In this document: positions 33,211-58,230 of the stretch, one piece after another | Numbering within the stretch: position 1 is the stretch's first letter | How the letters are laid out: every line of letters begins with the position of its first letter | Origin: Aeromicrobium duanguangcaii | GTDB taxonomy: Bacteria; Actinomycetota; Actinomycetes; Propionibacteriales; Nocardioidaceae | DNA: 64,000 bases | NCBI RefSeq assembly: GCF_024508295.1 | Contig: NZ_CP101990.1 | Coordinates: 496,001-560,000 of the forward strand | Direction: 5' to 3' | Position numbers and translations under genes: made by a program | Notes under the pieces: model-generated | Seen by the model: only the letters and a program-made list of their open reading frames with translations | Told to the model about the DNA's origin: nothing | The model's database searches: none

Positions 33211-33227
33211 ACTCTGTTTAATGCAGT
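33211..33227. promoter_or_regulatory. ACT-N11-AGT dyad, site A (HxlR-A / thiolase)
   Basis: ACTCTGTTTAATGCAGT lies between the divergent HxlR-A and thiolase genes. It holds a -10-like TTTAAT (33217-33222). It is one of seven such dyads in promoters of this island. Confidence 0.55.
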
Positions 33228-33279
33228 AACCTTCCGACGTGTCCGCACGGTGCGGCGAGTTCAGCGACAGGTGGGATCG

Positions 33280-34464
33280 ATGACCGAGGCCTTCGTCTAC
33301 GAGGCGGTGAGGACGCCGCGCGGTCGCGTGCGGCGCGACGGCGGCACCCTGGCCGGGCTGCCCGCCCACGAGCTGCTCGCCCAGCTGCTGCGCGAGCTCG
33401 AGCGGCGCGACCTGCCGTTGGACGCCGTCGAGGACGTCGTCATCGGCGTCAGCACGGCCCACGGCGAACAGGCCGCCGACCTCGCGCGCGTCGCCGTCAT
33501 GGCCGCCGACTGGCCCGACCTGGTCCCCGCGGGCGTCGTCTCGCGCATGTGCTGCTCGGGCCTGGACGCCATCGCCACGGCATCGGCCCAGGTCCGCTCC
33601 GGGATGCTCGACGTGGTCGTGGCCGGCGGCGCCGAGTCGATGTCGCGCGTGCCGATGATGAGCGACCAGCCGGCCTTCGCCTTCGATCCGGGGCTCGGAG
33701 ACACGACCGGCTTCGTGACGATCGGCGTCTCCGCCGACCTGACCGCCGCGAAGCACGGCTTCTCCCGCGAGGAGCTGGACGGCTGGGCCGTCCGCTCGCA
33801 CCGGCGCTCCGCCGCCGCCACGTGGGACTCCGTCGTGCCCGTGACCCAGGGCGGCGAGACCGTCCTCGCGCAGGACGAGGGCGCCCGCGCCGACACGACC
33901 CCCGAGTCCCTTGCGGGCCTCGCTCCGCTGTTCGGCGACGATCCGCTCTGGTCGCGCGTCGAGGAGCGGTTCCCCGGCTTCGAGCGACCGGCGCAGGGAC
34001 TGCACACCGTCGCCACCGCCCCGCAGCTGTGCGACGGCGCCTCGGCCTCCGTCATCGGCTCGGCCGCCGCCGAGCGCGTCCTCGGCCGTGCCCCGCGCGG
34101 CCGCATCGCGGGCTGGGCGCACACCGCCGTCCGCTCCCCGGGTCTCGACGGCACGATCGCCGCGGCGCGGCTGGCGATGGAGCGGGCCGGCATCGACGTC
34201 GCGGACGTCGCCGTGGCGGAGTTCAACGAGTCGTTCTCGGTCACGCCGCTGCTGCTGACCCGCGAGCTGGGCATCGATCCCGAGCGGGTCAACATCCAGG
34301 GCGGCGCCGTGTCGGTCGGCCACCCGCTGGCCGCCAGTGGCGGCATCCTGCTCGCCAACGCGCTCGACCTGCTAGGCCGGCGCGGTGGCGGCTACGCCCT
34401 GCTGGTCATCCCCGCCGCGCTCGGCGTCTCGATGGCCGTCGTCGTGGAAGGCCTGGCGGCATGA
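33280..34464 (+). CDS. Thiolase-family protein lacking the second catalytic cysteine
   Basis: A 394-residue thiolase-fold protein. The nucleophilic Cys is present (Cys91 in SRMCCSG) and the active-site His in VGHPLAASGG. The second Cys, normally in CIGGG near the C-terminus, is replaced: the matching stretch reads YALLVIPAALGVSMA, putting Pro where Cys is expected. NEAF is NESF. Such a protein may have altered thiolase/claisenase chemistry or a decarboxylative or aldolase-like role. ATG at 33280 follows AGGTGGG. Its stop overlaps the next gene by 4 bases. Confidence 0.87.
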   Translation: MTEAFVYEAVRTPRGRVRRDGGTLAGLPAHELLAQLLRELERRDLPLDAVEDVVIGVSTAHGEQAADLARVAVMAADWPDLVPAGVVSRMCCSGLDAIATASAQVRSGMLDVVVAGGAESMSRVPMMSDQPAFAFDPGLGDTTGFVTIGVSADLTAAKHGFSREELDGWAVRSHRRSAAATWDSVVPVTQGGETVLAQDEGARADTTPESLAGLAPLFGDDPLWSRVEERFPGFERPAQGLHTVATAPQLCDGASASVIGSAAAERVLGRAPRGRIAGWAHTAVRSPGLDGTIAAARLAMERAGIDVADVAVAEFNESFSVTPLLLTRELGIDPERVNIQGGAVSVGHPLAASGGILLANALDLLGRRGGGYALLVIPAALGVSMAVVVEGLAA

Positions 34465-35528
34465 CCTACCGCGTCGTCCAGTGGGCGACCGGGGCGATGG
34501 GCACGGCGATCCTGCGCACGATGCTGGATCATCCGGGCGTCGACGTGGTCGGCACGTACGTCTACGGCGAGGCCAAGGCCGGCCGCGACGTCGGTGACCT
34601 GGCTCGCCGGGACGCGACCGGCGTGCTGGCGACCTCCGACGTCGACGAGATCCAGGCGCTGGACGCCGACGTGGTCGTCCACGCCGGCCGCATCGGCCCG
34701 TACGGCGCCCATGACGACGAGATCGTCGCGCTGCTCGAGTCGGGCAAGAACGTGCTCAGCATCAACGGCTACACCGATCCGTTCGTCCACCCCGGCCCGC
34801 GGCTGGACCGGCTCCGGGCCGCGGCCGAGCGCGGCGGGGTCACCCTCATGGGAGTCGGCCTCAATCCCGGCTTCATCGGCGAGCAGGTCGCGGTGCTCGC
34901 GACCGGCGTGTGCGCCTCGGTCGACCACATCGAGGTGGTCGAGATGGCCGACGCGCGCCTCGTGCAGGACCCCGAGTACCTGTTCGGCTCCCTGGGGTTC
35001 GGCGCGGCGCTCGACGAGCACGACCCCAACGACCCCTCGTGGGGGCCGGTCGGCGCGCTCAACGGCATGTACGAGGAGGTCCTCGGCGCGATGGCGCACC
35101 ACCTCGGCCTGGCGATCGACGAGGTCGTCAGCGACCACGTGTGCCACCCGGCCGGGTCCGACCTGACGGTCGCCGCCGGCGTGATCCCGCAGGGCACCGT
35201 GGGGCACACCAACTGGCGCTGGCACGCGATGGTCGACGGCAGCCCTCGGCTGACGATGTCGATCCACTGGTTCGTCGAGACCGCGCACCTGCCCGAGCCC
35301 GAGCCGCCGCTGTGGCGGGTGAACATCACGGGGCACCCCGGCGTGAAGATCGCCATGGAGCTCGAGAAGCACCCGGCCGATCGCAGCCGCATGGGCGCCG
35401 AGCAGTACGCCGTGGCGGGTCAGGTCATCAATGCGGTGCCCCACGTGGTGGCCGCCGAGCCGGGTCTGATGATCCGGCCCGTCGCGACGCCGGCGCGAGC
35501 CGACTACGCCACGTTCCGACCGCGCTGA
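34461..35528 (+). CDS. DapB-like NAD(P)-dependent oxidoreductase
   Basis: A 355-residue protein with an N-terminal Rossmann domain (VVQWATGAMGTAILRTML, the dinucleotide-binding GxxGxxG variant) similar to dihydrodipicolinate reductase and 2,4-diaminopentanoate dehydrogenase. Its middle domain is typical of the actinobacterial dihydrodipicolinate reductase-like family (GVGLNPGFIGEQVAVLATG, VEMADARLVQDPEYLFG). True DapB is about 245-270 residues, so this longer protein is not expected to make lysine. It overlaps the thiolase by 4 bases (ATGA), so the two probably act on the same compound. The substrate is unknown. Confidence 0.85.
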   Translation: MTYRVVQWATGAMGTAILRTMLDHPGVDVVGTYVYGEAKAGRDVGDLARRDATGVLATSDVDEIQALDADVVVHAGRIGPYGAHDDEIVALLESGKNVLSINGYTDPFVHPGPRLDRLRAAAERGGVTLMGVGLNPGFIGEQVAVLATGVCASVDHIEVVEMADARLVQDPEYLFGSLGFGAALDEHDPNDPSWGPVGALNGMYEEVLGAMAHHLGLAIDEVVSDHVCHPAGSDLTVAAGVIPQGTVGHTNWRWHAMVDGSPRLTMSIHWFVETAHLPEPEPPLWRVNITGHPGVKIAMELEKHPADRSRMGAEQYAVAGQVINAVPHVVAAEPGLMIRPVATPARADYATFRPR

Positions 35529-35568
35529 AAGCCGTCGGAGGAGCTGTTTTCTCGACCCTTCCGTAGCA

Positions 35569-35585
35569 ACTCTGATAAGTGTAGT
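35569..35585. promoter_or_regulatory. ACT-N11-AGT dyad, site B
   Basis: ACTCTGATAAGTGTAGT lies 40 bases before the thiolase start at 35626, in an otherwise short (97-base) gap. The right half-site GTAGT is identical to sites C, D and F. Confidence 0.55.
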
Positions 35586-35625: not shown

Positions 35626-36846
35626 ATGACCAAGTCGCCGAACGTCTGGGTGCTCGGTGGGTACCAGACCGATTTCGCTCGCAACTTCCATCGCGAGGGC
35701 AAGGACTTCGCCGATCTCGCGACCGAGGTCGTCGACGGCACGCTGGCCGCCTCCGGGCTCGACGCCGAGGAGATCGGCGTCATCCACGTCGGCAACGCCT
35801 TCGGCCAGCTCTTCGCCGGCCAGGGCCAGCTCGGCGCGATGCCCGCGACCGTCAACCCCGGCCTGTGGGGCACCCCCTCCTCCCGCCACGAGGCCGCGTG
35901 CGCCTCGGGCAGCATCGCGGTCCTGGCCGCGATGGCCGACCTGCGCGCCGGCAACTACGACACCGCGCTCGTCGTCGGCATCGAGCTGGAGAAGACCGTC
36001 AGCGGCGACCAGGCGGCCCACCACCTCGGTGCCGCGGCCTGGGCCGGCCACGAGGGCGAGGACGCCACGTTCATGTGGCCGTACATGTTCAGCCAGGTCG
36101 CCGACGAGTACGACCGCCGCTACGGCATCGACCAGGCGCACCTGAGCCGGATCGCCGAGATCAACTTCGCCAACGCGAAGCTCAACCCCAACGCGCAGAC
36201 CCGCGGCTGGGACGTGCCCGACCTCGGTCCGGCCGGCGACCCCGCCCTGAACCCGCAGATCGACGGCCGCGTGCGTCGCTTCGACTGCAGCCAGGTCACT
36301 GACGGCGGCTCCGGCATCGTGCTGGTGTCCGATGCGTTCCTGGTTCGCCACCCCGACCTGCGCCCGATGGCGCGCATCGCGGGCTGGGGCCACCAGACCG
36401 TCGGCCTGGGCCTGCAGCAGAAGCTGGACCACTCGGCGGACCAGCCCTACGTCATGCCGCACCTGCGCCGCGCCGTGCTCGACGCGTTCGACCGCGCCCA
36501 GATCGGGCTCGACGACCTCGACGCGCTCGAGACGCACGACTGCTTCACGCCCAGCGAGTACATCGCGATCGACCACATCGGCCTCACCGAGCCCGGTGAG
36601 TCGTGGAAGGCGATCGAGAACGGCGACATCGAGATCGGCGGTCGCCTGCCCATCAACCCCAGCGGCGGCCTGATCGGCGGCGGACACCCCGTCGGCGCGT
36701 CCGGCATCCGCATGGTGCTCGACGCGACCAAGCAGGTCACGGACACTGCCGGCGACTACCAGGTCGACGGCGCCGACACTGTCGGAACGCTCAACTTCGG
36801 CGGAAGCACCGCCACGACCGTCAGCTTCGTCGTGACGGCCAACTGA
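35626..36846 (+). CDS. SCP2/Ltp-type thiolase
   Basis: A 406-residue thiolase of the lipid-transfer-protein type. The nucleophile is in EAACASGS, HDCF is present (ETHDCFTPSEY), followed by NPSGGLIGGGHPVGASG, and the C-terminus has LNFGGSTATT in place of CIGGG, as usual for this subfamily. Relatives cleave branched or steroid-like 3-ketoacyl-CoA thioesters, or act as retro-aldolases with a DUF35 partner; no DUF35 gene is seen nearby. GAGAGGTGG upstream gives a good ribosome site. It is the first gene of a pair with the carotenoid-oxygenase-type gene 27 bases downstream. Confidence 0.9.
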   Translation: MTKSPNVWVLGGYQTDFARNFHREGKDFADLATEVVDGTLAASGLDAEEIGVIHVGNAFGQLFAGQGQLGAMPATVNPGLWGTPSSRHEAACASGSIAVLAAMADLRAGNYDTALVVGIELEKTVSGDQAAHHLGAAAWAGHEGEDATFMWPYMFSQVADEYDRRYGIDQAHLSRIAEINFANAKLNPNAQTRGWDVPDLGPAGDPALNPQIDGRVRRFDCSQVTDGGSGIVLVSDAFLVRHPDLRPMARIAGWGHQTVGLGLQQKLDHSADQPYVMPHLRRAVLDAFDRAQIGLDDLDALETHDCFTPSEYIAIDHIGLTEPGESWKAIENGDIEIGGRLPINPSGGLIGGGHPVGASGIRMVLDATKQVTDTAGDYQVDGADTVGTLNFGGSTATTVSFVVTAN

Positions 36847-36873: not shown

Positions 36874-38391
36874 ATGGATCTGGAACTGGTGGGCAAGCTG
36901 CTGTCGACGCTGCCCGAGGACGACGACCACCCCTACCGCACCGGGCCGTGGCGGCCGCAGACCAACGAGTGGGTCGCCGACGACCTGGAAGTCGTCGAGG
37001 GGCAGATCCCCGCCGACCTCGACGGCGTCTACCTGCGCAACACCGAGAACCCGGTGCACCCGTCGCTGAAGAACTACCACCCGTTCGACGGTGACGGCAT
37101 GATCCACGTCGTCGGCTTCCGCGACGGCAAGGCGTTCTACCGCAACCGGATGATCCGCACCGACGGCTACCTCGCCGAGCAGGAGGCCGGCCAGTCCCTG
37201 TGGGCCGGCCTGGCCGAGCGACCCCAGATCGCATTGCGCGAGGACGGGTGGGGCGCGCGTCGCCAGATGAAGGACGCGTCCAGCACCGATGTCGTCGTGC
37301 ACCGCGGCGTCGCGCTGAGCACGTTCTACCAGTGCGGCGACATGTACCGGATCGACCCGTTTTCGGCCCAGACGCTGGGCAAGGAGAGCTGGAACGGGCA
37401 CTTCCCGTTCGACTGGGGCGTCTCGGCGCACCCGAAGGTCGACGACCGGACCGGCGAGATGATGTTCTTCAACTACAGCAAGGAGGCGCCGTACATGAAG
37501 TACGGCGTCGTCGACGACAAGAACGACCTCGTCCACTACGTCGACATCCCGCTGCCGGGCCCGCGTCTGCCGCACGACATGGCGTTCACGGAGAACTACG
37601 CGATCCTCAACGACATGCCGCTGTTCTGGGACCCGGAGGCGCTCAAACAGAACGCCCACGTGGCCCGCTGGCACCGCGACATGCCGGCCAGGTTCGCGGT
37701 CATCCCGCGCCGTGGTCAGACCAAGGACATCATGTGGTTCGAGGCCGAGTCGACCTACGTCCTGCACTTCACCAACGCCTACGAGGAGGGTGACGAGGTC
37801 GTGCTGGAGGGCTACTTCCAGACCGACCCGGAGCCGGCCGACAACGGCACCGGCACGAAGTGGGAGCGGGCGTTCCGCTTCCTGGCGCAGGACCGGATGG
37901 AGACCCGCCTGCACCGGTGGCGCTTCAACCTCAAGACCGGCCTGACGAAGGAGGAGCGCCTCACCGACACGGTGTCCGAGTTCGGCATGATCAACGGCTC
38001 GTTCGGTGGCGTGAAGCACCGCTACTCCTACTCGGCCACGAACAAGCCCGGCTGGTTCCTGTTCAACGGACTGGTCAAGCACGACTCGTTGACCGGTGCG
38101 GAGGAGACGTTCGCCTTCGAGGACGGCGTCTACGGCAGTGAGACCGCGATGGCGCCGCGCGTGGGCTCGACGTCCGAGGACGACGGCTACCTGGTCACCT
38201 TGATCTCGGACATGAACGCCGATGCGTCCTACGCCGTGGTGTTCGACGCCGCGCGGCTCTCGGACGGGCCCGTCTGCAAGCTCAAGCTGCCCGAGCGCAT
38301 CTCCAGCGGGACGCACTCGACGTGGTGTGCCGGCGAGGAGCTGCGCCGCTGGCAGACGGAGGATTCGGCGGCGACCGCCGTCGGCCTCTGA
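36874..38391 (+). CDS. Carotenoid cleavage oxygenase family protein
   Basis: A 505-residue non-haem iron dioxygenase of the RPE65/lignostilbene dioxygenase family. The four iron-binding histidines are identifiable: His186 (SAHPKVD), His234 (LPHDMAF), His298 (LHFTNAYEE) and His481 (GTHSTW). The N-terminal LRNTENP and FDGDGMIH segments match the family. Enzymes of this type split a conjugated C=C bond in apocarotenoids or stilbenes into two carbonyl compounds. Its place after a thiolase in an acid-degrading island suggests cleavage of an isoprenoid or stilbene-like side chain, with the products oxidised and activated to CoA (inference). AGAGGAA is upstream. Confidence 0.92.
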   Translation: MDLELVGKLLSTLPEDDDHPYRTGPWRPQTNEWVADDLEVVEGQIPADLDGVYLRNTENPVHPSLKNYHPFDGDGMIHVVGFRDGKAFYRNRMIRTDGYLAEQEAGQSLWAGLAERPQIALREDGWGARRQMKDASSTDVVVHRGVALSTFYQCGDMYRIDPFSAQTLGKESWNGHFPFDWGVSAHPKVDDRTGEMMFFNYSKEAPYMKYGVVDDKNDLVHYVDIPLPGPRLPHDMAFTENYAILNDMPLFWDPEALKQNAHVARWHRDMPARFAVIPRRGQTKDIMWFEAESTYVLHFTNAYEEGDEVVLEGYFQTDPEPADNGTGTKWERAFRFLAQDRMETRLHRWRFNLKTGLTKEERLTDTVSEFGMINGSFGGVKHRYSYSATNKPGWFLFNGLVKHDSLTGAEETFAFEDGVYGSETAMAPRVGSTSEDDGYLVTLISDMNADASYAVVFDAARLSDGPVCKLKLPERISSGTHSTWCAGEELRRWQTEDSAATAVGL

Positions 38392-38551: not shown

Positions 38552-39499
38552 TCAGCGCGGCTGCAGCGTCAGCGCGGCGAAGCGCTCGCCGGCGGTGCGG
38601 TACTCGGACTCCAGGCGGTCGACGACCGTGGCGACGGGCTCGACGGCGCGGATGGTCTGCAGGCCCTGGCCGGCGGCCCACAGGTCCTTCCAGCGCGCGC
38701 CCGCGCCGGCCGTGGAGTCGTAGTCGCGCTGGGCGGGGCCGACCATCGCGTCAAGGTCGTACCCGTTCGCGATGAGGCTCGGTCGCAGCCACGACGCGGG
38801 GGTGCCGGTGACGCCCGAGCTGACGATCAGGTCGTCCGGGCCGTGGTCGACGACCATCTGCTTGTACTCGTCCTGGGCCATGCTCTCCTCGGTGACGAGG
38901 AACCGCGTGCCCATGTAGACCAGGTCGGCGCCCGCGGCGATCGCGCCGGCGATGCCGGCTCCGTCGGTCACGCCGCCGCCGACGGTGACGATGCCGTCGA
39001 ACATCTCGCGCACGGCGGAGATGAACGCGAAGGGCGACAGGTGGCCGGTGTGGCCGCCGGCGCCGGCCGAGACGCAGGCCAGCCCGTCGACGCCCGCGTC
39101 GATCGCCTTGCGTGCGAGCTTGAGGTTCACGACGTCGGCGATGACGGTGCCGCCGTAGGACTTCACGACCTCCATGACCGGCAGCGGGGAGCCCAGCGCC
39201 GTGATCACGATGTCGGGCTGGTGCTCGGCCACGAGGGCGAGGTCCTCGGGCAGGCGCGCGTTGCTGCGGTGGGTCACGAGGTTCAGCGCCCACGGCGCGG
39301 CGTCGGGGGAGCCGGCCAGGCGGTCGCGGATCGTGCCCATCCAGGTGTCGAGCTCCTCCGCCGTGCGGCAGTTGGGGCTGGGGAAGGAGCCCACGACGCC
39401 GGCCTCGCAGGCCGCGACGACGAGATCGGGGCCCGAGATCAGGAACATGGGCGCCGCCACGACGGGCAGGCGGAGTCGGTCGAGCAGGGTGTCGGTCAT
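38552..39499 (-). CDS. Nitronate monooxygenase / 2-nitropropane dioxygenase family protein
   Basis: A 315-residue FMN-dependent TIM-barrel protein. LPVVAAPMFLISGPDLVVAA at the N-terminus, the GAGGHTG segment with the conserved His, TVGGGVTDGAGIAGAIAAGADLVYMGTRFL (FMN phosphate binding) and AQDEYKQ place it in the NMO family. Many actinobacterial members have no proven nitronate activity and sit in acyl-CoA clusters as reductases or oxidases. The start at 39499 follows AAGAGAAG; the frame is open 38 codons upstream but is Pro/Arg-rich there. It is divergent from the acyl-CoA ligase at 39781. Confidence 0.9.
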   Translation of the reverse strand: MTDTLLDRLRLPVVAAPMFLISGPDLVVAACEAGVVGSFPSPNCRTAEELDTWMGTIRDRLAGSPDAAPWALNLVTHRSNARLPEDLALVAEHQPDIVITALGSPLPVMEVVKSYGGTVIADVVNLKLARKAIDAGVDGLACVSAGAGGHTGHLSPFAFISAVREMFDGIVTVGGGVTDGAGIAGAIAAGADLVYMGTRFLVTEESMAQDEYKQMVVDHGPDDLIVSSGVTGTPASWLRPSLIANGYDLDAMVGPAQRDYDSTAGAGARWKDLWAAGQGLQTIRAVEPVATVVDRLESEYRTAGERFAALTLQPR

Positions 39500-39715
39500 C
39501 GAGTCACTTCTCTTGCGGGGGAAGGGGAGCTGGTCCCGGGACAGTGGGGGAACGGTGGGGGACGGCGATCGAGGCGGGCGGGCGGGCCGACGCGGCGGTC
39601 CCGGGTCGATCACGGGACAGCACGATCACGTCCTGGTCGTCACGCATCGCCCCTCCTCGACTCGTGTCGCTGTTCTAATGTGACCTTACATCGCTCACCC
39701 GGCATCCCGTCCAGT

Positions 39716-39734: not shown

Positions 39735-39751
39735 ACTTCCTATCTAGTAGT
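39735..39751. promoter_or_regulatory. ACT-N11-AGT dyad, site C
   Basis: ACTTCCTATCTAGTAGT covers the -35 region of the predicted leaderless promoter of the ligase at 39781. Confidence 0.55.
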
Positions 39752-41478: not shown

Positions 41479-42200
41479 TGGAACCACTGCGTCTGCGTCA
41501 GGTCGTCCTCATCACGGACGACCTCGACACCGCCCGGAAGGAGGCGATCGCCGCCTTCGGATTCCCCGGCAGCGTCCGCGACGAGGAGGGGATGGCCTCG
41601 CTGGGCTTCATCCACGACGTGTTCAGCTTCGCCGACACGTTCATCGAGATCGTGGCGCCGATCTCGCCGGACTCGCCGCACGGGCGCCAGGTCGCCGCGA
41701 ACGGCCCGAGCGGCTTCATGATCGCGACGCAGGTCCTCGATCTCGACCTGGTCGTCGAGCGGGCCGCCGAGCAGGGGCTCGCGCCGCTGATGCACCAGGA
41801 GTACGACGGCCACATGATCTCGCAGTGGCACCCCAAGGCACTGGGCACGCTCACCGAGATCGACCAGGTCGACCCGTTCGAGAGCTGGCACTTCGCCCCA
41901 CAGGTGTTCGCCCAGTCGGCCACGGACGTGGCCGTCGACATCGCGGGCGCCACCCTGGCCGTCCCCGACCCGGCCGCCGTGGCCTCGACGTGGGCCGCCC
42001 TCACCGGTGCTCCCGTCGAGCAGGACCACACCGTCAGGATGGGCCCGGAGTCACTGTCACTGGTGCCGTCCGGCGACGGCCCGCGCGGTCTGGTCGCCGT
42101 CGACGTCGTCGCGGCCGACCCGCAGCAGGTGGGCCGGGTCGTCGAGCTGTGCGGCGTTCCCTTCCGTTTCGTCTCCCCCGAGTCCCAGGAGCAGTCATGA
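41478..42200 (+). CDS. VOC-fold protein, 240 residues
   Basis: A two-module vicinal-oxygen-chelate (glyoxalase/dioxygenase fold) protein. LRQVVLITDDLDTAR begins module 1. SQWHPKALGTLTEIDQV supplies a His and a Glu in the positions of typical VOC metal ligands, and a second shorter module follows after residue ~150 (VDIAGATLAVPDPAAVA). A paralogue of identical length lies at 54912-55634, also coupled to an acyl-CoA ligase. VOC enzymes include epimerases such as methylmalonyl-CoA epimerase and ring-cleaving dioxygenases; the reaction here is unknown. It overlaps both neighbours. Confidence 0.83.
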   Translation: MEPLRLRQVVLITDDLDTARKEAIAAFGFPGSVRDEEGMASLGFIHDVFSFADTFIEIVAPISPDSPHGRQVAANGPSGFMIATQVLDLDLVVERAAEQGLAPLMHQEYDGHMISQWHPKALGTLTEIDQVDPFESWHFAPQVFAQSATDVAVDIAGATLAVPDPAAVASTWAALTGAPVEQDHTVRMGPESLSLVPSGDGPRGLVAVDVVAADPQQVGRVVELCGVPFRFVSPESQEQS

Positions 42201-45792: not shown

Positions 45793-45801
45793 GGAGCATT
45801 C

Positions 45802-49216: not shown

Positions 49217-49233
49217 ACTGTTAAAATGAAAGT
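49217..49233 (+). promoter_or_regulatory. ACT-N11-AGT dyad, site E, over a leaderless -10
   Basis: ACTGTTAAAATGAAAGT abuts the ATG of the SDR at 49234. It contains TAAAAT (49222-49227) 6 bases before the start codon and there is no ribosome site, so the transcript is probably leaderless and would be blocked by a protein bound to the dyad. Confidence 0.5.
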
Positions 49234-50264: not shown

Positions 50265-50651
50265 TCAGCTGCTGAAGCGAAGAGCCTCGGCCGAGTCGAT
50301 GTACTCGTCGAGACGCTCGATCAGCCCGTCCTCGCCGATCGTGACGACGACGCAGGCGTGCAGCTGGACCGGCTCGCCGCTGCGCACGTTGATGCCGCGC
50401 AGGACGTGTTGCTGAACGACGCCGCCCTCGAACACCTGGATCCGGCGATCGGTGTACTCGCGGTCGGTGACGCGTTCGGAGATCCGGCGCAGCACCTTCG
50501 CGTTCTGCTCGACCGTCTGCTCGACGCCGTCGTTGTTGTGCCAGATGACGGCGTCGGGCGCGTAGACGTTGAACAGGTCGGCCGGGTCGCCGGCCTGGGC
50601 GGCCGCGATGATGCGGTCGAGCAGTTGGACGTAGGGGTGGCGGTCGTTCAT
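50265..50651 (-). CDS. SnoaL-like / NTF2-fold protein
   Basis: A 128-residue NTF2-like alpha+beta barrel protein. The N-terminal helix PYVQLLDRIIAAAQAGDPADLFNVYAPDAVIWHNND and the strand VVTIGEDGLIERLDEYID match polyketide cyclase SnoaL-like and ketosteroid-isomerase-like folds. Asp and His residues in VIWHNND could line the pocket, but the activity is unknown. It starts 9 bases after the stop of the upstream acyl-CoA ligase and is presumably co-transcribed with it from the promoter region near 52400. Confidence 0.85.
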   Translation of the reverse strand: MNDRHPYVQLLDRIIAAAQAGDPADLFNVYAPDAVIWHNNDGVEQTVEQNAKVLRRISERVTDREYTDRRIQVFEGGVVQQHVLRGINVRSGEPVQLHACVVVTIGEDGLIERLDEYIDSAEALRFSS

Positions 50652-50659: not shown

Positions 50660-52381
50660 TCAGATATGGGCGGTGCGGCGCAGCTCGCGCTTGAGCACCT
50701 TGCCGACGGGGTTGCGGGGCAGCTCGTCGCGGATCTCGAGCCGCTCGGGCAGCTTGTAGGAGGCGATCTTCGACTCACGCAGGAACTCGATGAGCTCCTC
50801 GAGGGTCAGGGACGCACCCGGGTTGAGCGTGACGACCGCGGCGACGCGCTCGCCCATCTGCTCGTCCGGATCGCCGACGACCGCGACGTCCGCCACGGCA
50901 GGGTGCTCGCCGATGAGCGCCTCCATCTCGGCCGGCGCGATGTTCATGCCGCCGCGGATGACGAGGTCCTTCCCGCGATCGAGGTAGCGCAGGAACTGGT
51001 TCCGGTCACCGGCGATCTCGAAGATGTCGCCGGTCTTCAGCATCCCCTGCTCGTCGAACGGGTTCGCGCGCGTCTCGGGGTTGAGGTAGCCGGCGAAGAC
51101 CGTCGGGCCGCCGATGCGCAGCTCGCCGGGCACGCCGGGCTCGGTGACCTCCTCGCCCGTGATCGGGTCGACCAGGCGCAGCTGGACCCACTCCGAGACG
51201 GCCGAGGACCACGTGACGCCCGGTGCGCCGTAGCGCGGGAAGAACTGCGCGCGGTCGTCCGCCTCGGGGAAGTCCTCGAGGCTCGACAGCAGTGCGATGC
51301 CCTCGTTGGAGCCGAAGAAGTTGATGACGCCGATGCCGAGCTTCTCCTGCCAGCCGCGCACCATGACGGGCTGCAGCGGCGCCGAGCCCGAGCCGATGCG
51401 GGTCAGGCTCGACAGGTCGATCTGGCTCAGCAGGGCGTCGTTGTGCAGCAGCATCCACAGCAGTGCCGGCGGCGCGACGGTGTAGGTCGCCCGCTCGCCG
51501 GCGATCTGGCCCAGGAAGGTCTTGAGGTCGAACGGGTGGTGCTGCACCAGCACGCCGCCCGTGCGCAGCCACGGCAGGAACATGCCGTTGATGCCGGCCA
51601 TGTTGACCATCGGGAAGGGGTTGAGCAGGACGTCGTCGGCCGTGACCTTCGGGGCGTCGAGGGTCGCCGTGCTGATCGCGATCCACTCCAGGTGTGCGCG
51701 GGGCACGCCCTTCGGCTCGCTCTCGGTGCCCGACGTCCAGCAGATCGTCGCGCAGTCGTTCGCGTCGTTCGGGTCGGCGGCGCGGCGCTCGGCGACGCGG
51801 GCCCGCTGCTCGTCGGTCGCGACGGCGGGCGACCAGCCCGTGACCTGGTCGGGGAGGCCCTCGAGCTCGGTCGCGTCGCTGTACGCGATGACGGTCTCCA
51901 AGGTCGGGACGCGGTCGCTCAGGGCGGCGGCCTCCTCGGCCGGCCGGCGGCCCGCGAAGGCGGGCGAGCCGATGAACGCACGGAAGCCGGCCTGGTTCGC
52001 CATGCCCACGATCTCGTGCTCTCGGTACTGCATGGGAAGTGGCGAGACGATGATGCCCAGCAGCCACGCGCCGAGGTAGACCTCGGCCAGCTCGATCGTG
52101 TTGGGCAACTGCACGCCGACCACGTCGCCGCGCTGGAGGCCCAGCTCGTCCAGGCGTGCCGCGACCGTCTGGACCTCGGCGTCCAGCTCGGCCCACGTGA
52201 GCCGTCGCGGAGCCGATCCGAGCAGGTCGGAGCGGTTCGCGGGGTCGACGATCGCGAGTCGGTCGGGCCGCTCGCGCACCTGCTGGAGGTAGAAGTCGTC
52301 GAGCGTCTCGTCGGTCCACCACCCCTTCGACTGGAACTCCCGGACCTTCGCCTGCGGATGCAAGCCCCGTGCGATCGACAT
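50660..52381 (-). CDS. AMP-dependent acyl-CoA ligase
   Basis: A 573-residue ligase paralogous to 39781-41478: both have the SKGWWT / EQGWWT start, VGVQLPN, the variant P-loop TSGTESEPKGVPR, FFGSNEG, and the C-terminal RNPVGKVLKRELR with the catalytic lysine. The start at 52381 follows GAGGAGAG; the frame is open another 222 codons upstream but that part lies antisense to the divergent SDR. It is divergent from the SDR at 52469 and shares site F with it. Confidence 0.92.
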   Translation of the reverse strand: MSIARGLHPQAKVREFQSKGWWTDETLDDFYLQQVRERPDRLAIVDPANRSDLLGSAPRRLTWAELDAEVQTVAARLDELGLQRGDVVGVQLPNTIELAEVYLGAWLLGIIVSPLPMQYREHEIVGMANQAGFRAFIGSPAFAGRRPAEEAAALSDRVPTLETVIAYSDATELEGLPDQVTGWSPAVATDEQRARVAERRAADPNDANDCATICWTSGTESEPKGVPRAHLEWIAISTATLDAPKVTADDVLLNPFPMVNMAGINGMFLPWLRTGGVLVQHHPFDLKTFLGQIAGERATYTVAPPALLWMLLHNDALLSQIDLSSLTRIGSGSAPLQPVMVRGWQEKLGIGVINFFGSNEGIALLSSLEDFPEADDRAQFFPRYGAPGVTWSSAVSEWVQLRLVDPITGEEVTEPGVPGELRIGGPTVFAGYLNPETRANPFDEQGMLKTGDIFEIAGDRNQFLRYLDRGKDLVIRGGMNIAPAEMEALIGEHPAVADVAVVGDPDEQMGERVAAVVTLNPGASLTLEELIEFLRESKIASYKLPERLEIRDELPRNPVGKVLKRELRRTAHI

Positions 52382-52404
52382 GGCCTCTCCTCGTGACACT
52401 TCAA

Positions 52405-52432
52405 TTGACAGTGTGATACAGATTACTACAAT
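52405..52432 (+). promoter_or_regulatory. Strong promoter of the SDR-ligase pair
   Basis: TTGACA (52405-52410), 16 bases, TACAAT (52427-52432): the best consensus promoter in the window. The -10 lies inside the site F dyad. Confidence 0.6.
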
Positions 52433-52441
52433 AAACGTAGT
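52425..52441. promoter_or_regulatory. ACT-N11-AGT dyad, site F
   Basis: ACTACAATAAACGTAGT has perfect ACTAC/GTAGT half-sites 7 bases apart and covers the -10 and predicted start of the SDR promoter, a repressor arrangement. A second short dyad, TCAATTGA (52401-52408), lies just upstream. Confidence 0.65.
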
Positions 52442-52468
52442 CAGTCGACAAGGGAAGAGGTGGGGTCC

Positions 52469-53239
52469 ATGAGCGCCGGACGTCGTACGCCGGTCACCGG
52501 CAGCACCGTCGTCGTGACGGGAGCCAATCGCGGGATCGGATTGGCGTTCGTCCAAGAGGCTCTCGCCGCCGGAGCGGCGAAGGTCTACGCCGGGGTGAGG
52601 GACGTCGGCGACGTCACGGACGAGCTGGCCGCCACGGGCGCCGAGATCGTCGCGCTCGACGTGGTCGACCGCGCCCAGGTGCAGGCCGCGGCCCGCACCT
52701 GCTCCGACGCCACCGTGCTGATCAACAACGCGGGACTCTTCACGGGCAACCGCCTCGTCCAGGCCGACGACCCCGACGCCGCCCGCCGCGAGATGGAGGT
52801 CAACTACTTCGGCCCGCTCGAGACCACGCGCGCGTTCGCGCCGGTGATCTCGGCCAACGGCGGCGGCGCGATCGTCAACGTGCTGTCGGTCGCGGCCATC
52901 GCGCCGACCGCGTTCATGGGCGGCTACTCGACCTCGAAGGCCGCCGCGCTGTACCTCGGCGGCATCGCGCGGGCCGAGCTCGAGCCGATGGACGTCGGTG
53001 TGACGTCGCTGATCGTCGGCTCCGTCGAGACCCGGATGGCCGCGCACGTCGACGGCCAGAAGGAGGATCCGCGCGACGTCGCCCGGATCGGCCTCAAGGC
53101 GATGTCTCGCGGCGACTGGACCTGCGACACCGATCGCATGGCCATCGACTCGCGCGCTCGCATGGCGCGCGACCCCATCCGCTACGAGCGCGGCCTGGGC
53201 AAGCTGCTGTTCGTCGACCAGCTGGTCACCAAGCCGTGA
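52469..53239 (+). CDS. SDR-family oxidoreductase
   Basis: A 256-residue classical SDR. The cofactor motif is VTGANRGIG, with INNAG, catalytic Ser in NVLSVAA and Tyr/Lys in YSTSK. The region after the active site (IVGSVETRMAAHVDGQKEDP) matches the group with short C-terminal substrate loops. ATG at 52469 lies behind AGAGGTGGGG; a GTG at 52460 is unlikely. The stop overlaps the next acyl-CoA ligase by 4 bases (GTGA). An SDR coupled to a ligase suggests oxidation of an alcohol or ketone linked to activation of the acid. Confidence 0.91.
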   Translation: MSAGRRTPVTGSTVVVTGANRGIGLAFVQEALAAGAAKVYAGVRDVGDVTDELAATGAEIVALDVVDRAQVQAAARTCSDATVLINNAGLFTGNRLVQADDPDAARREMEVNYFGPLETTRAFAPVISANGGGAIVNVLSVAAIAPTAFMGGYSTSKAAALYLGGIARAELEPMDVGVTSLIVGSVETRMAAHVDGQKEDPRDVARIGLKAMSRGDWTCDTDRMAIDSRARMARDPIRYERGLGKLLFVDQLVTKP

Positions 53240-54828
53240 GCTCGCTCGCGGCCGGCCTGGAGACGCACGGGGACGGCTCGCCGTTCGTGCGGCTCGAGGA
53301 CGTCGTGCGCCGGAGCGCGGCGCACGACCCCGAGGGCACCGCCCTGATCGAGCCCGGCCGGCGCGTGACGTTCGCCGAGCTCGACGCGTCGAGCAACCGG
53401 TTCGCCCGGGCTCTGCTCGCCGACGGCGTGCAGCCGGGGGACCGGGTCTGCCACATCGGCGAGAACAGCGTCGCCTTCTTCGACGTGCTCTACGGCGCGG
53501 GCAAGGCCGGCGCGATCCCCGTGCCGATGAACTTCCGGCTCGCGCCGCCCGAGGTGCTGCAGATCGTGGAGGACGTCGAGCCCCGCGTGGTCGTCCTCGG
53601 CGCCGGCATGGAGCACCACGGCGCCGCGATCGCGGCCGTGCCGGGTGTCGCCCGCGTCGTCACCGTCGAGCCCGCCGACGGGCTGACGGACCTGTCCACC
53701 TGGGCCTCGGAGCAGCCGGCCACGGACCCGGGCATCGCCCGCGACCCCGAGGACACGGCCGTGATGTTCTACACGTCGGGCACGACGGGCCGGCCCAAGG
53801 GCATCGAGCTCACGGGCGTGAACGTCAGCTCGTCGCTGGCCTGCCCGCTCTCGCTCGTGCGGTTCGACCGGGACTCGGTCGCGCTGGCGCCGGTGCCGTT
53901 CTTCCACGTCACGGGCTTCGGACTGGCCCTCATGGCGAACCTCAAGGGCTCGGCCCTGCTGATGATCAACCCGCAGGGTCCGGCCGACCTGCTGGGCGTG
54001 TTCCAGGAGTACCGGGTCAGCCACGGCGTGCTGGTCCCCACCGTCATCCAATTCATGCTGGACCTGCCCGAGTCCCGCACCGGCGACTGGTCCGCGCTGC
54101 GCTGTCTCATGTACGGCGGCGCGCCCATGCCCGAGTCGGTCCTGCGCGACGCGACCGAGGTGTTCGGCTGTGACTTCATCCAGGGCTACGGCCTCACCGA
54201 GTCGACCGGCGGCGTCGCCTTCCTGGCGCCGGAGGACCACCGCACCACCCCCGAGACGGTCCACCGGCTGCGGTCGGTGGGCCGCGTGCGCGGCGGCAAC
54301 GAGCTCCGTGTGATCGACCCGATGACCGGGGCCGACCAGCCGCCCGGCGTGCGCGGCGAGGTCCTCGTCCGCGGCGGGAACGTCATGAAGGGCTACTGGC
54401 GGCGCGCGCAGGACACGGCCGACGCGGTCGACGCCGACGGCTGGCTGCACACCGGGGACGGAGGCCACCTCGACGAGGACGGCTACCTGTTCCTGGGGGA
54501 CCGGCTCAAGGACATGATCGTCTCGGGTGGCGAGAACGTGTACCCCGCCGAGGTCGAGAGCGTGCTCACGGCACATCCGGGCGTCGCCCAGGTCGCCGTC
54601 ATCGGCGTGCCCTCCGACCGGTGGGGCGAGTCGCCCATGGCGATCGTCGTCCGGTCGAGCGGACCCGAGGGCGCCGCGCTCGACGCGGCGGCGGTGATCG
54701 GCTGGGCCCGCGAGCGGCTCGCGCACTACAAGTGCCCGGTCGACGTGGCGTTCGTCGACGCGTTGCCCCTCAATGCCAGCGGCAAGCTGCTGAAGGTGCG
54801 GCTGCGCGAGGAGTTCGCCGGCTCCTGA
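53236..54828 (+). CDS. AMP-dependent acyl-CoA ligase
   Basis: A 530-residue ligase. The P-loop is YTSGTTGRPKG, followed by QGYGLTEST (A5), GWLHTGDGG (A7), DRLKDMIVSGGENVYP and the C-terminal lysine in PLNASGKLLKVRL. It resembles the ligase at 55631-57190 (GENVYPAEVE, HYKCP) more than the WW-type pair. The start is GTG inside the SDR stop. It is followed by a strong terminator. Confidence 0.93.
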   Translation: MSSLAAGLETHGDGSPFVRLEDVVRRSAAHDPEGTALIEPGRRVTFAELDASSNRFARALLADGVQPGDRVCHIGENSVAFFDVLYGAGKAGAIPVPMNFRLAPPEVLQIVEDVEPRVVVLGAGMEHHGAAIAAVPGVARVVTVEPADGLTDLSTWASEQPATDPGIARDPEDTAVMFYTSGTTGRPKGIELTGVNVSSSLACPLSLVRFDRDSVALAPVPFFHVTGFGLALMANLKGSALLMINPQGPADLLGVFQEYRVSHGVLVPTVIQFMLDLPESRTGDWSALRCLMYGGAPMPESVLRDATEVFGCDFIQGYGLTESTGGVAFLAPEDHRTTPETVHRLRSVGRVRGGNELRVIDPMTGADQPPGVRGEVLVRGGNVMKGYWRRAQDTADAVDADGWLHTGDGGHLDEDGYLFLGDRLKDMIVSGGENVYPAEVESVLTAHPGVAQVAVIGVPSDRWGESPMAIVVRSSGPEGAALDAAAVIGWARERLAHYKCPVDVAFVDALPLNASGKLLKVRLREEFAGS

Positions 54829-54911: not shown

Positions 54912-55634
54912 TCAGGCGTGCTGCACGCGGAAGGTGACCTGCCCGAAGTCGATCTCGTCGGGAAGACCCTGCCCTGCCGGCGTCGCAACGACGTCGATGG
55001 CACTGAGGCGCGCGACGTCGTCCTTCACGAAGCGCACGGTGCGCTCGCCCAGCCGGACGAGGGGCACGTCGTCCCACTCGTCGAGCTCGACACCGAGGAC
55101 GGCCGCCCAGAGCTCGGCGCGGGCCACGGGATCGGCCGTGGCCACGTCGATGCCCACGACGTCGCCGATCAGCGGCTCGGCCGGGGTCTCGAAGTCGACG
55201 TCGTCCCAGTGCCACGCCTGCGGGTCGGGGATCTCGTCGAGCTCGAGGAGCAGGCCCATGTCGCCGGGGTGGAACTGGATGATGCGCTTGCCGTGGACGT
55301 CCAGGTCGACGGCGATCCGCACGCCGGCCGCCTCGGCCGCCGCCAGGTGCGGCGTCAGGTCGCTCACCTGGATCGAGGCGCAGTAGCCGGCCGTGCCGCC
55401 GACCTTCGCGAGCCAGCCGTTGATGGGCGCCTTCTCGTTCAGCGGCGCGACCAGCTCCAGGTACGCCACGTCGCCGACCGGGAGGGTCTCGTCGGCCATG
55501 CCGACGTCCTCCAGCATCGGATCGGTGTACCCGGGGGCCAGGCCGAAGAGCTCACGCAGGCGGTCGCCGTCGCCGGCGAAGTCAGCCGTGCCGAGCGCGA
55601 CCTGGCGCAGGATGGGGAAGGGGGACGTGGTCAT
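54912..55634 (-). CDS. VOC-fold protein, 240 residues
   Basis: Same length and organisation as the protein at 41478-42200: LRQVALGTADF opens module 1, IIQFHPGDMGLLLELDEI provides the His and Glu of the metal site, and a second module starts at VVGIDVATADPVA. Three Trp/His-rich residues (PQAWHWDDVDF) follow the metal strand in both. It overlaps the stop of the upstream acyl-CoA ligase by 4 bases (ATGA), again a ligase-VOC pair. AAAGGA is the ribosome site. The reaction is unknown; an epimerase, isomerase or dioxygenase on a CoA-linked or ring substrate is possible. Confidence 0.83.
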   Translation of the reverse strand: MTTSPFPILRQVALGTADFAGDGDRLRELFGLAPGYTDPMLEDVGMADETLPVGDVAYLELVAPLNEKAPINGWLAKVGGTAGYCASIQVSDLTPHLAAAEAAGVRIAVDLDVHGKRIIQFHPGDMGLLLELDEIPDPQAWHWDDVDFETPAEPLIGDVVGIDVATADPVARAELWAAVLGVELDEWDDVPLVRLGERTVRFVKDDVARLSAIDVVATPAGQGLPDEIDFGQVTFRVQHA

Positions 55635-57190
55635 CCGATGGTCCTTTCGGCGGCGGCCCAGTGGGGGGCGCGCAGCTCTCGCTTGAGGATCTTCCCCGAG
55701 GGGTTCCGGGGGAGCATCTCGATCACCTCGACCGAGGTGGGGCACTTGTAGTGGGCCAGGCGCTCACGGCAGAACGCGATGATCTCCTCGCTGGTCACCG
55801 ACTCGCCCTGACGGGTCACCACGACGGCGTGCGGCGTCTCGCCCCAGCGCTCGGAGGGGATGCCGATGACGGCGACCTCCTGCACGGCCGGGTGCGCCAT
55901 GAGCACGTTCTCGACCTCGGCCGGGTACACGTTCTCGCCGCCGGTCACGATCATGTCCTTGAGTCGGTCCTTGAGGAACAGGTAGCCGTCCTCGTCCAGG
56001 TAGCCGGCGTCGCCGGTGCGGAACCAGCCGCCGTCGAAGAAGGACGCCTCGGTCGCGTCGGGACGACGCCAGTAGGACCGCGTCACGTTGGCGCCGCGGG
56101 TCACGATCTCGCCGACCTCGCCGGCGGGCACGTCCTTGCCCTCGCCGTCGACGACGCGCAGCTCGACCCCGGGCACGGCGCGGCCCGCGGACTGCAGCTT
56201 GCTGTCGGCGCCGACGACGTGGTCCTCGGGACGCAGGATCGTCAGCACGCCGATGGTCTCGGTCAGGCCGTAGCTCTGCGAGAGCTTCGCGTCGAAGATC
56301 TTCTGCGTGCCGAGCATGACCGTCTCGGAGATCGGGGAGCCGCCGTAGACGAGGTGCTGGACGCTGGAGTAGTCGGCCGCGGCCGCCTGCGGGTTCGCGA
56401 TGACCATCGCCATGACGGTCGGGACCATGATCACGTGGGTCGCGCGGTGCGCGACGAGCAGGCCGATCATGCTCTGCGGCGTGACCTCGATGAACTGGAT
56501 GATCTGGCCGCCGTGGGCCAGCGAGATGAGCGACCAGCCGCCCGCGGCGATGTGGTAGTACGGCGTCGGCACGAGGCTGACCGTGTCGGGCCCGACCTCG
56601 AACTGCGCCGAGAAGGCGGCGACCGCGGCGAGCATCGCGTCGCCGGTGGTGGTGACGCCCTTGGGGGTGCCGGTCGTGCCGGAGGAGTACATCAGCGACA
56701 ACAGCTCGTCGCCGGTCACGTCCTGGCGCGGATCGGTCGCGGACTGCTGCGCGAGCCACGGTTCGTAGCCGACCCAGCCGTCCGGGACGGTGGGCTCGCC
56801 CTCCTGGCTGAAGACCACGCGCAGGCCGGTGTAGTCGGCGGGCACGAGGCCGGTCAGGTGGTCCTCGACCACGAGGACCGACGGCTCGGCGTCGGAGAGG
56901 ATCCAGGCGATCTCGGGGGCGGACAGCCGGAAGTTCAACGGCACGACGGCGGCGCCGGACTTGGCGGTGCCGAAGAACAGCTCCCAGAACTCGGTGCCGT
57001 TGCGAGCGAGGTAGGCGACCCGGTCGCCGCGGTCGAGGCCCTGGGCCAGCAGGCCCGAGGCGACCTGGTTCGTGCGGGTGTCGAGCTCGCCGTAGGTGAC
57101 GGTCCGGCCCTCGCCCACGATCGCGGGGGAGGCGGAGTGGGCCTGGCTGCTGGTGCGGAGGAGATCCGCGACGGTGTGTGCTCCGGTCAT
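55631..57190 (-). CDS. AMP-dependent acyl-CoA ligase
   Basis: A 519-residue ligase. YSSGTTGTPKGV is the P-loop, SYGLTETIG A5, GWFRTGDAG A7, DRLKDMIVTGGENVYP the hinge region, and the catalytic lysine is in NPSGKILKREL. It starts at 57190 with AAGGAAC upstream. It is coupled at both ends: the HxlR-C stop overlaps its start and its own stop overlaps the VOC start. The order HxlR-C, ligase, VOC suggests an autoregulated activation operon. Confidence 0.93.
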   Translation of the reverse strand: MTGAHTVADLLRTSSQAHSASPAIVGEGRTVTYGELDTRTNQVASGLLAQGLDRGDRVAYLARNGTEFWELFFGTAKSGAAVVPLNFRLSAPEIAWILSDAEPSVLVVEDHLTGLVPADYTGLRVVFSQEGEPTVPDGWVGYEPWLAQQSATDPRQDVTGDELLSLMYSSGTTGTPKGVTTTGDAMLAAVAAFSAQFEVGPDTVSLVPTPYYHIAAGGWSLISLAHGGQIIQFIEVTPQSMIGLLVAHRATHVIMVPTVMAMVIANPQAAAADYSSVQHLVYGGSPISETVMLGTQKIFDAKLSQSYGLTETIGVLTILRPEDHVVGADSKLQSAGRAVPGVELRVVDGEGKDVPAGEVGEIVTRGANVTRSYWRRPDATEASFFDGGWFRTGDAGYLDEDGYLFLKDRLKDMIVTGGENVYPAEVENVLMAHPAVQEVAVIGIPSERWGETPHAVVVTRQGESVTSEEIIAFCRERLAHYKCPTSVEVIEMLPRNPSGKILKRELRAPHWAAAERTIG

Positions 57191-58152
57191 GGTGTTCCTT
57201 CGGGTGCAGTCCGGTCCTCGTTGACCGGGACGATGGTGATGGTGCCGGTGACCAGCGGCTGTCGGCACTGGTCGCAGGCGAGGTGGGCCACGAAGTCGTG
57301 GCCGCACGCCGTGTGGGTCTGGACGAGCGCGGGTCCCTCCGGGGAGACGAACCACTTCTCGGCCCAGTGCAGGGACAGGGCGGTGACGGGGAAGAACGCG
57401 CGCCCCTTGTCGGTCAGGTGGTACTCGGGCCGGCCGGGGTGCTGCGCGTGCTGACGGGTCTCGAGGACGCCGAGGTTGCAGAACGTGCGCAGGCGCTCGG
57501 CGATGAGGGTGGGCGGAGCGCCGAGTGCGACCTCGAACTGACTGAACCGCACCATGCCGCGGAACGCCGCGCCGATCAGGGCCGAGGACCACCGGTTCCC
57601 GAAGATCTCCAGGGTCTGGGGGTACTGCAGCGACTCCGGGACCGAGTCGGGGCGCCGGCGCGTGGAGGACGCGGGGACGGAGCGCTCCCAGCTGCCGCTG
57701 GGCCCCCAGACGGCCCGGATGTCGCGGGCCTCGACCGGAACGCCGCACGCCCGGCACGTCAGCAGGGGCGCGAACTCGGCGCCGCAGGTCTCGTGGCGGC
57801 GCAGCGGGAGGGCCTCGCCGGCGGGGCCGGTCCAGCTGCGCTCCCACTCCCAGATGGCCAGCATCATCGGCCACAGGGTGCGGCTGCGCGCGGTCGGCAG
57901 GTACTCGGCGCGCAGCGGGTTGGTCCGGTAGATGCGCCGCTCGAGCAGGCCGTGCTCGGTCAGTCGGGTGAGCCGGTGGGTCAGCACCGAGTTCGAGATG
58001 GGCATGACCTCGCGGAACTCCCCGTAGCGGGTCAGGCCCCGCGACGAGTGACCCAGGATCAGCAGCGACCACTCGTCCCCGAGCAGGCCCAGCATCTGTC
58101 CGACGGCGTTCGTCCCGCCCGGTTCGAGCAGCGTGGGTCCCCCGTCGGTCAT
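57187..58152 (-). CDS. Double HxlR-type regulator with two zinc-ribbon motifs (HxlR-C)
   Basis: A 321-residue third paralogue. Winged helices lie at about 18-108 (LGDEWSLLILGHSSRGLTRYGEF) and 180-268 (FGNRWSSALIGAAFRGMVRFSQF). The zinc motifs are His120/Cys123/Cys133/Cys136 and His280/Cys283/Cys293/Cys296. It is the closest relative of HxlR-A, including the shared CGAxFxxxLxCxxC context and WGPSGSWERSVP linker. Unlike the other two it heads an operon with a ligase and a VOC gene. It is divergent from the SDR at 58258, with site G between them. GAGGAA is the ribosome site. Confidence 0.88.
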   Translation of the reverse strand: MTDGGPTLLEPGGTNAVGQMLGLLGDEWSLLILGHSSRGLTRYGEFREVMPISNSVLTHRLTRLTEHGLLERRIYRTNPLRAEYLPTARSRTLWPMMLAIWEWERSWTGPAGEALPLRRHETCGAEFAPLLTCRACGVPVEARDIRAVWGPSGSWERSVPASSTRRRPDSVPESLQYPQTLEIFGNRWSSALIGAAFRGMVRFSQFEVALGAPPTLIAERLRTFCNLGVLETRQHAQHPGRPEYHLTDKGRAFFPVTALSLHWAEKWFVSPEGPALVQTHTACGHDFVAHLACDQCRQPLVTGTITIVPVNEDRTAPEGTP

Positions 58153-58192
58153 CGGCCATTCCTCGAAGTCGTGCGGCTCCCAGCGTGGGGAC

Positions 58193-58221
58193 TTGTCATC
58201 TGCGTCACACCGTACTACAAC
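58193..58221 (+). promoter_or_regulatory. Promoter of the SDR-DUF1295-thioesterase operon
   Basis: TTGTCA (58193-58198), 17 bases, TACAAC (58216-58221). The -10 sits at the same place within the ACT-N11-AGT dyad as in the site F promoter. A degenerate CRP-like site (TGTCA-TCTGCG-TCACA, 58194-58209) overlaps the -35. Confidence 0.5.
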
Positions 58222-58230
58222 TAACGGAGT
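58214..58230. promoter_or_regulatory. ACT-N11-AGT dyad, site G
   Basis: ACTACAACTAACGGAGT shares ACTACAA and AAC with site F and covers the -10 of the promoter of the SDR at 58258. It is 62 bases from the divergent HxlR-C start. Confidence 0.62.

Follow-up and report, generated by a model that had tools for sequence, protein, structure and literature searches.

The window analysed here is a stretch of 64,000 nucleotides from Aeromicrobium duanguangcaii (RefSeq assembly GCF_024508295.1, contig NZ_CP101990.1, positions 496,001 to 560,000), and between 33 and 58 kb it carries a gene island with three tandem HxlR regulators, two thiolases, a carotenoid oxygenase, four acyl-CoA ligases, three short-chain dehydrogenases (SDRs), a Liv-type importer, an enoyl-CoA hydratase and further enzymes, as assigned with Pfam and NCBIfam (Table 1). 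The carotenoid oxygenase scores far below the cut-offs of the NCBIfam carotenoid-/lignostilbene-cleaving models (222 of 675 and 220 of 800 bits). Besides the three tandem genes, one other HxlR match was found in the genome of this strain. The promoter gaps of the island contain 17-bp dyads of the form ACT-N11-AGT, and we propose that these are very probably operators bound by the tandem HxlR proteins, which would thereby repress a conserved actinobacterial catabolic regulon.

Seven of the dyads (A to G) had been listed in a preliminary description of the window, and their coordinates and sequences all proved exact. An eighth, D2 (ACTTCAAAACACAGAGT, 44188-44204), absent from that list, shares a gap with site D. 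Exact copies of ACT-N11-AGT thus number eight in the window, every one within promoter gaps of the island. By our own limits the seven gaps total 1,089 bp (56% G+C) instead of the approximately 1.2 kb first given, and the accompanying estimate of about 0.3 chance matches agrees with the mean of 0.256 (maximum 4) in 3,000 dinucleotide shuffles of the gaps. The dyad is present in 7/7 gaps, and among 1,472 dyads compared (64 half-sites combined with 23 spacers) no other reaches more than 3/7; with any other spacer from 3 to 25, the ACT and AGT half-sites give at most two matches, and none at N7. When the 13 island gaps of at least 20 bp in our own gene calls are sorted by orientation, sites are found in all five divergent gaps, two of four same-direction gaps and none of four convergent ones. 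A chance pattern in A/T-rich gaps might be invoked, as the gaps were picked after the motif had been seen there and the dyad is not rare in the window as a whole (eight observed, shuffle mean 4.4); the gap enrichment is therefore taken as a check only, the weight being carried by independent tests. The shuffled gaps, the footprints in four genomes, the out-of-sample matrix test and the class-wide co-occurrence reported below make chance practically negligible as an explanation.

In the complete genome (3.13 Mb) ACT-N11-AGT occurs 91 times, 83 of them outside the island. Among 81 of these 83, the centre holds on average 2.5 A/T in seven positions against 5-6 in the island, and only one exceeds 16 bits with a matrix made from the seven original sites, whose own leave-one-out scores range from 13.7 to 26.4 bits, with E and C lowest. 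Genome-wide matches away from the regulon were examined singly, four in this genome and one in the Aeromicrobium genome G020. The best site elsewhere in the own genome, at 1245213 (L211:2213-2229), is a palindrome, ACTGCATAGAATGCAGT, of 17.2 bits amid TGCAT repeats and is probably the site of another regulator; it was kept out of the regulon, other repeats surrounding it.

Table 1. Genes and dyads of the island (positions in the window). The last column gives the bases of the dyad that are invariant across four Aeromicrobium genomes and, in brackets, those of the rest of the gap (for D and D2, a gapless count with flanking bases).
Feature	Positions	Strand	Basis or remark	Invariant bases
HxlR1, tandem two-domain HxlR regulator, 320 amino acids	32196..33158	-	PF01638 on two stretches, 120.5 bits	
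Operator A, between HxlR1 and thiolase A	33211..33227		exact dyad	15/17 (38/76)
Thiolase A (acetyl-CoA acyltransferase-like)	33250..34464	+	Pfam, NCBIfam	
DapB_N-like / 2,4-diaminopentanoate-dehydrogenase-like oxidoreductase	34461..35528	+	weak: Pfam (longer frame) and NCBIfam, both below cut-off; start estimated	
Operator B, upstream of thiolase B and carotenoid oxygenase	35569..35585			17/17 (31/44)
Thiolase B (PRK06289-type)	35626..36846	+	NCBIfam NF004936, 703 bits, cut-off 375	
Carotenoid oxygenase (RPE65 family)	36874..38391	+	Pfam PF03055, 417 bits	
Nitronate-monooxygenase-type flavoprotein	38552..39613	-	Pfam PF03060	
Operator C, upstream of ligase A	39735..39751			17/17 (63/152)
Acyl-CoA ligase A	39781..41478	+	Pfam PF00501	
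Glyoxalase-like protein	41478..42200	+	Pfam PF13468	
Enoyl-CoA hydratase	42203..42982	+	Pfam PF00378 (longer frame), NCBIfam; start estimated	
HxlR2, tandem HxlR regulator	43013..43933	-	PF01638 on two stretches; start = ATG at 43933	
Operator D	44041..44057		exact dyad	14/17 (7/80)
Operator D2, upstream of livG	44188..44204		exact dyad, identical in four genomes	17/17 (43/80)
Liv-type importer: two ATPases, two permeases, binding protein	44324..49087	+	Pfam	
Operator E	49217..49233		directly abuts SDR1 start codon; covers TAAAAT 49222-49227	13/17 (40/131)
Short-chain dehydrogenase SDR1	49234..50199	+	Pfam PF00106	
SnoaL-like protein	50265..50651	-	Pfam PF12680	
Acyl-CoA ligase B	50660..52381	-	Pfam PF00501 (longer frame); frame verified; start = ATG at 52381	
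Second dyad F2, ACTTCAATTGACAGTGT	52398..52414		overlaps -35 TTGACA; 27 bp from F	
Operator F	52425..52441		overlaps -10 TACAAT	16/17 (37/48)
Short-chain dehydrogenase SDR2	52460..53239	+	Pfam	
Acyl-CoA ligase C	53236..54828	+	Pfam	
Acyl-CoA ligase D	55631..57190	-	Pfam (longer frame), NCBIfam; start estimated	
HxlR3, tandem HxlR regulator	57193..58152	-	PF01638 on two stretches (longer frame)	
Operator G	58214..58230		exact dyad; covers TACAAC 58216-58221	17/17 (82/90; gap conserved throughout, so that this footprint tells little)
Second dyad G2, TCTCTATCAATCGAAGT	58232..58248		18 bp from G	
Short-chain dehydrogenase SDR3	58258..59166	+	Pfam; followed by a DUF1295 protein, 59179-60009	

Three sister genomes retain the island, with a DNA identity of 90-94% in the main blocks for G018 and of approximately 80-88% for G006 and G041. 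Seven of the eight sites are kept as ACT-N11-AGT in all three, and E as such in G018 only; C is retained although its gap has otherwise diverged. When the six gaps A, B, C, E, F and G are pooled, 95 of 102 dyad bases are invariant, against 291 of the 541 other bases. In G006 and G041, 1.8 kb separate D from D2, and a fifth acyl-CoA ligase, preceded by D, lies between them (in G006, 563 amino acids and 47% identical to ligase B, from the joined stretches L166 and L167). This ligase is gone from the window and from G018, leaving D and D2 in one gap.

The distribution of the dyad relative to the tandem HxlR genes was examined at two levels. A first pattern, ACTNCANNWNWCRKAGT, run on 118 relatives including 49 Aeromicrobium genomes, was found in ten of the 13 Aeromicrobium genomes with a tandem HxlR (one gene being partial) and in none of the 36 without; 28 of its 30 matches in the genus lie at regulon loci, and the six in the own genome all fall within the island. 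Outside the genus it matched 14 genomes, about the chance level for its length. In a set of 14 genomes that contain loci from the HxlR search described below, 8 of 11 matches of the first pattern lie at the known locus and five genomes have none. A stricter pattern, ACTACAANTAVSRGAGT, was run on 393 genomes of the class, tandem HxlR being called at E <= 1e-60; the draws of 393 genomes used for pattern and for HxlR are taken as the same set, since their handles agree where listed. This pattern is present in 11 of 22 genomes with a tandem HxlR and in none of the 371 without, in all 11 at no more than 4 kb from an HxlR gene, and its reversed control matched one genome.

Beyond the genus, the best 78 of 175 loci from a search with the three HxlRs were used (four from Aeromicrobium and 74 from outside, many of them related and not independent), with 100 column-permuted symmetric matrices as a control. 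The matrix built from the seven sites alone, as the preliminary description had suggested, reaches at least 18 bits in 59 of the 74 non-Aeromicrobium loci (control mean 0.8, maximum 4) and at least 20 bits in 49 (control mean 0.2, maximum 2). Upstream of orthologues, sites are kept not only in the three sister genomes but also in many further families, the hosts of matches of at least 15 bits including Mycobacteriaceae, Nocardiaceae, Streptomycetaceae, Pseudonocardiaceae, Intrasporangiaceae, Nocardioidaceae, Treboniaceae and Acidimicrobiaceae. The order thiolase B, carotenoid oxygenase, tandem HxlR is found in 55 of the 78 loci; the oxygenase lies directly upstream in nine more, and 14 show neither arrangement. 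Most out-of-genus sites stand before this operon, and a site scoring 15 bits or more is found at no more than 250 bp from 55 of the 60 thiolase-B genes (20-site matrix, 78 loci). The thiolase-B site has the consensus aGTcACTCTgTTAGTTGTAGTA.cgT, beyond which conservation drops, and its end lies a median of 19 bp upstream of the thiolase-B match (no more than 30 bp in 45 of 55). The position of operator B matches that of the site in the mycobacterial operon, and the reverse complement of operator G is the thiolase-B site of six loci, five from Mycolicibacterium (L106, L125, L126, L157, L162) and one from an actinomycete (L112). A-like sites adjoin HxlR1-type genes in Nocardioides (L133), Pimelobacter (L141) and Trebonia (L139).

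In only 4 of the 78 loci was a dyad found within 400 bp upstream of an HxlR gene; HxlR mostly follows other genes, and the site is then located approximately 1.5-3.0 kb upstream. The matches are not equally common inside genes: none of the 106 of at least 14 bits in the 78 loci lies within a recognised regulon-gene stretch, recognition meaning a match to any of 25 window proteins, which leaves room for matches inside other genes. With the 20-site matrix, 88 of the 106 are at no more than 350 bp from the start of such a stretch, close to genes for thiolase B, oxygenase, LivG, SDR1-3, ligase B, thiolase A, HxlR1 and gene 3, and 18 are elsewhere. One could suppose that some other regulator, whose gene lies within or close to the islands, acts at these operators and that the tandem HxlR is a mere neighbour, given that binding by HxlR is inferred and that not every gene in the 78 loci is annotated. 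The absence of the pattern from all 36 genus genomes and, in its stricter form, from all 371 class genomes without tandem HxlR, together with the gene order shared by 55 loci, renders this quite improbable.

The location of the sites relative to promoter-like elements bears on the direction of the control. Sites E, F and G cover -10-like hexamers, as first described and as found again when the hexamers were checked; the placing of C on a -35 region is plausible in position and was judged by eye. At F, the hexamers TTGACA (52405-52410) and TACAAT (52427-52432) are 16 apart, with F on the -10 and F2 on the -35. The imperfect second dyads F2, next to F, and G2, next to G, are both found in the four Aeromicrobium genomes, and a pair resembling F and F2, with the same spacing of 27 bp, also occurs in loci of Mumia (L155), Janibacter (L114) and Sciscionella (L120). 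At the positions of E, F, G and the thiolase-B sites, the polymerase would be blocked by a bound protein. That the tandem HxlR acts from the same operators as an activator is thus unlikely: activators do exist in the family, PDB entries 7bzd and 7bzg being labelled 'transcriptional activator HxlR', and C stands at a plausible -35 position, but E, F and G lie on -10-like hexamers, E abuts a start codon and the sites of other taxa end within the short distances from thiolase B given above. The A/T-rich centre and the overlap with -10-like hexamers in E, F and G could also recall a promoter element, that is, a -10 and its flanks kept for RNA polymerase. This is scarcely credible, as C and F2 are at -35 positions, the first pattern is confined to the island in the own genome and the flanks beyond the centre are conserved.

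The operator core extends over 17 bp with the consensus ACTACAACTAACAGAGT, or approximately 26 bp with its flanks. The oriented consensus of 73 contexts reads A-C-G-n-T-ACTACAACTAACAGAGT-G-A-C-T, in which the flank positions -4, 0 and +19, unused in site selection, carry 1.34, 1.18 and 1.80 bits, respectively. Of 43 distinct sites, 31 are heterotypic, with ACTC at the start of one arm only, where 21.3 would be expected (permutation p = 0.004), the 43 being unfiltered by position and many of them orthologous. Such an asymmetry is what would be expected of two different DNA-binding heads on one chain.

PF01638 matches two stretches of each of the three HxlRs (102-123 bits, cut-off 20.8), and the two-domain architecture is common to 39 aligned tandem HxlRs over most of their length. 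In these 39 rows, an HxxC...CxxC element with invariant or nearly invariant residues, a sequence motif that may bind a metal, follows each winged helix, and most rows share a linker GPSGxW..SVP..TRRR, the GPSG being absent from HxlR2, L085 and L086 and the later part from L090. The putative recognition-helix regions differ consistently between the halves, with PISNAVLTxRL in the first and APPxxxADRL in the second. The AlphaFold2 model of HxlR3, with a predicted local distance difference test (pLDDT) of 92.2 and a predicted template modelling score (pTM) of 0.90, is consistent with a fixed arrangement of its two halves. A profile search of the PDB returned no chain spanning both halves; the best matches per half were 4gcv (profile positions 4-152) and PA1607 (2f2e, 164-277), which differ in being single-domain chains of 146-168 residues that cover one half only. 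In the tree, HxlR1, HxlR2 and HxlR3 fall in three separate parts, the HxlR1 and HxlR2 groups being strongly supported and that of HxlR3 less so. An assignment of individual operators to individual HxlRs failed, the paralogues being well separated in the tree and the sites alike. On balance, we lean towards a class of fused HxlR proteins in which one chain replaces the homodimer, its two unlike heads each reading one half-site (ACTAC or ACTCT) of a conserved asymmetric operator, and in which old paralogues share an operator alphabet and run an oxygenase-centred catabolic regulon across the Actinomycetota.

Each tandem half is a PF01638 winged helix whose profile finds YodB, QsrR, HxlR and YybR in the PDB, and an analogy with Bacillus YodB had been drawn at first. 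It stands for the dyad type of site and fails for the spacing and the sensor cysteine. According to PMC8063818, YodB also prefers a dyad, TACT-N7-AGTA, whereas the present sites read ACT-N11-AGT, or CTAC-N7-GTAG. The present proteins further differ in having two domains per chain, each with its C-terminal HxxC...CxxC element. No N-terminal sensor cysteine of the YodB Cys6 type is conserved in the 39 tandem HxlRs, several rows of which are end-trimmed; all of their invariant or nearly invariant cysteines are within the HxxC...CxxC elements. An operator and a redox sensing of the YodB type were therefore rejected, as spacing and cysteines both mismatch. The system most alike in its working appears to be Mce3R of Mycobacterium tuberculosis, described in PMC11667970 as a double-TetR repressor in which one chain carries two non-identical helix-turn-helix units, acting on a non-palindromic operator before lipid-metabolism genes with two binding sites per operator region. 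It is a fused double repressor; its fold is that of TetR, an unrelated family, and its sites are asymmetric, of 25 bp and 53 bp apart, whereas the present operators are quasi-palindromic. Among the matches listed in the open-licence literature (titles and abstract starts), no published account of tandem HxlR proteins or of the operator was found.

Taken together, these data lead us to a model in which the tandem HxlR, one chain with two different winged helices, would bind the 17-bp core on the -35, -10 or start region of catabolic promoters and switch them off; we infer one chain per dyad. A pathway catabolite, plausibly a CoA thioester or a cleavage product, would release the protein. The CoA thioester is a conjecture modelled on CouR of Rhodococcus jostii, a repressor of catabolic genes that is relieved by such a compound according to PMC4737184; CouR belongs to the MarR and not to the HxlR family. 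The regulator would control its own gene together with those for acyl-CoA ligases, thiolases, the carotenoid-cleaving-type oxygenase, SDRs and the Liv-type importer. The layout is most simply read as steric repression in which the regulator also acts on its own gene: the sites lie on promoter-like elements or directly before start codons, and the regulator gene either diverges from the operons that it would control or occupies a downstream position within them. The reading of the preliminary description, in which operators of the double HxlRs mark out a regulon that comprises ligases, thiolases, SDRs and the Liv importer, is thus supported at the sequence level by the tests of gene position and conservation. 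The main text of two papers on steroids in Nocardioides simplex (PMC7593942, PMC7807495), looked up by term, contains none of the words carotenoid, lignostilbene, HxlR, winged helix, branched-chain amino acid or nitronate, so that no inducer candidate comes from them; PMC4263727 mentions carotenoid oxygenase once and HxlR nowhere.

Several observations weigh against the proposed repression by tandem HxlR: (i) 15 of the 74 loci outside the genus have no match of at least 18 bits and eight do not reach 15 bits; with the threshold at 16 bits, 65 loci match against a control mean of 3.6, yet a single control reaches up to 26, and at 11 bits the match total is scarcely above the highest control; (ii) three of the 13 Aeromicrobium genomes with tandem HxlR lack the first pattern, namely G002, which has other ACT-N11-AGT sites, G031, whose gene is partial, and G007 (A. 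flavum), where an orphan HxlR1, 87% identical to that of the window, stands in a locus with no recognised regulon genes (L111 10001-10876), and the match of G020 and one of the two of G034 are not near an HxlR gene; (iii) half of the class genomes with tandem HxlR (11/22) lack the stricter pattern, and the hypergeometric values of 3.5e-8 (genus) and 9.4e-16 (class) are overstated since the genomes are related and not independent; (iv) site E, the weakest, ends in AGC instead of AGT in G006 and G041; and (v) the sites of the asymmetry test show no fixed polarity with respect to the gene, and two of the island sites, D and F, are symmetric.

With the operators proposed here, this group of regulators can be tied to a definite recognition sequence and set of genes in Mycobacterium, Nocardia, Streptomyces, Nocardioides and Acidimicrobiaceae. 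The oxygenase-thiolase pathway is widespread, and its function becomes testable, the operator being a ready reporter for the inducing compound, and the system offers a natural test of a fused winged-helix pair reading an asymmetric site, in parallel to the double-TetR Mce3R.

Three further observations concern single loci. In Nocardia sp. MH4, a strong site of 26.3 bits (L102:17752-17768) adjoins a second, HxlR2-like gene, in a locus with two oxygenase, two ligase-B-like and three thiolase-A-like matches. A contig labelled as a metagenome-assembled genome of Pseudomonadota (L138) carries a tandem HxlR by a carotenoid oxygenase and two thiolases, possibly through transfer or mis-binning. In the window, the stretch TGACCTTACAT (39681-39691), present as a sole copy at up to one mismatch, is nearly unbroken across the four Aeromicrobium genomes in a gap that has otherwise diverged, and might serve the nitronate-monooxygenase-type gene as promoter or operator.

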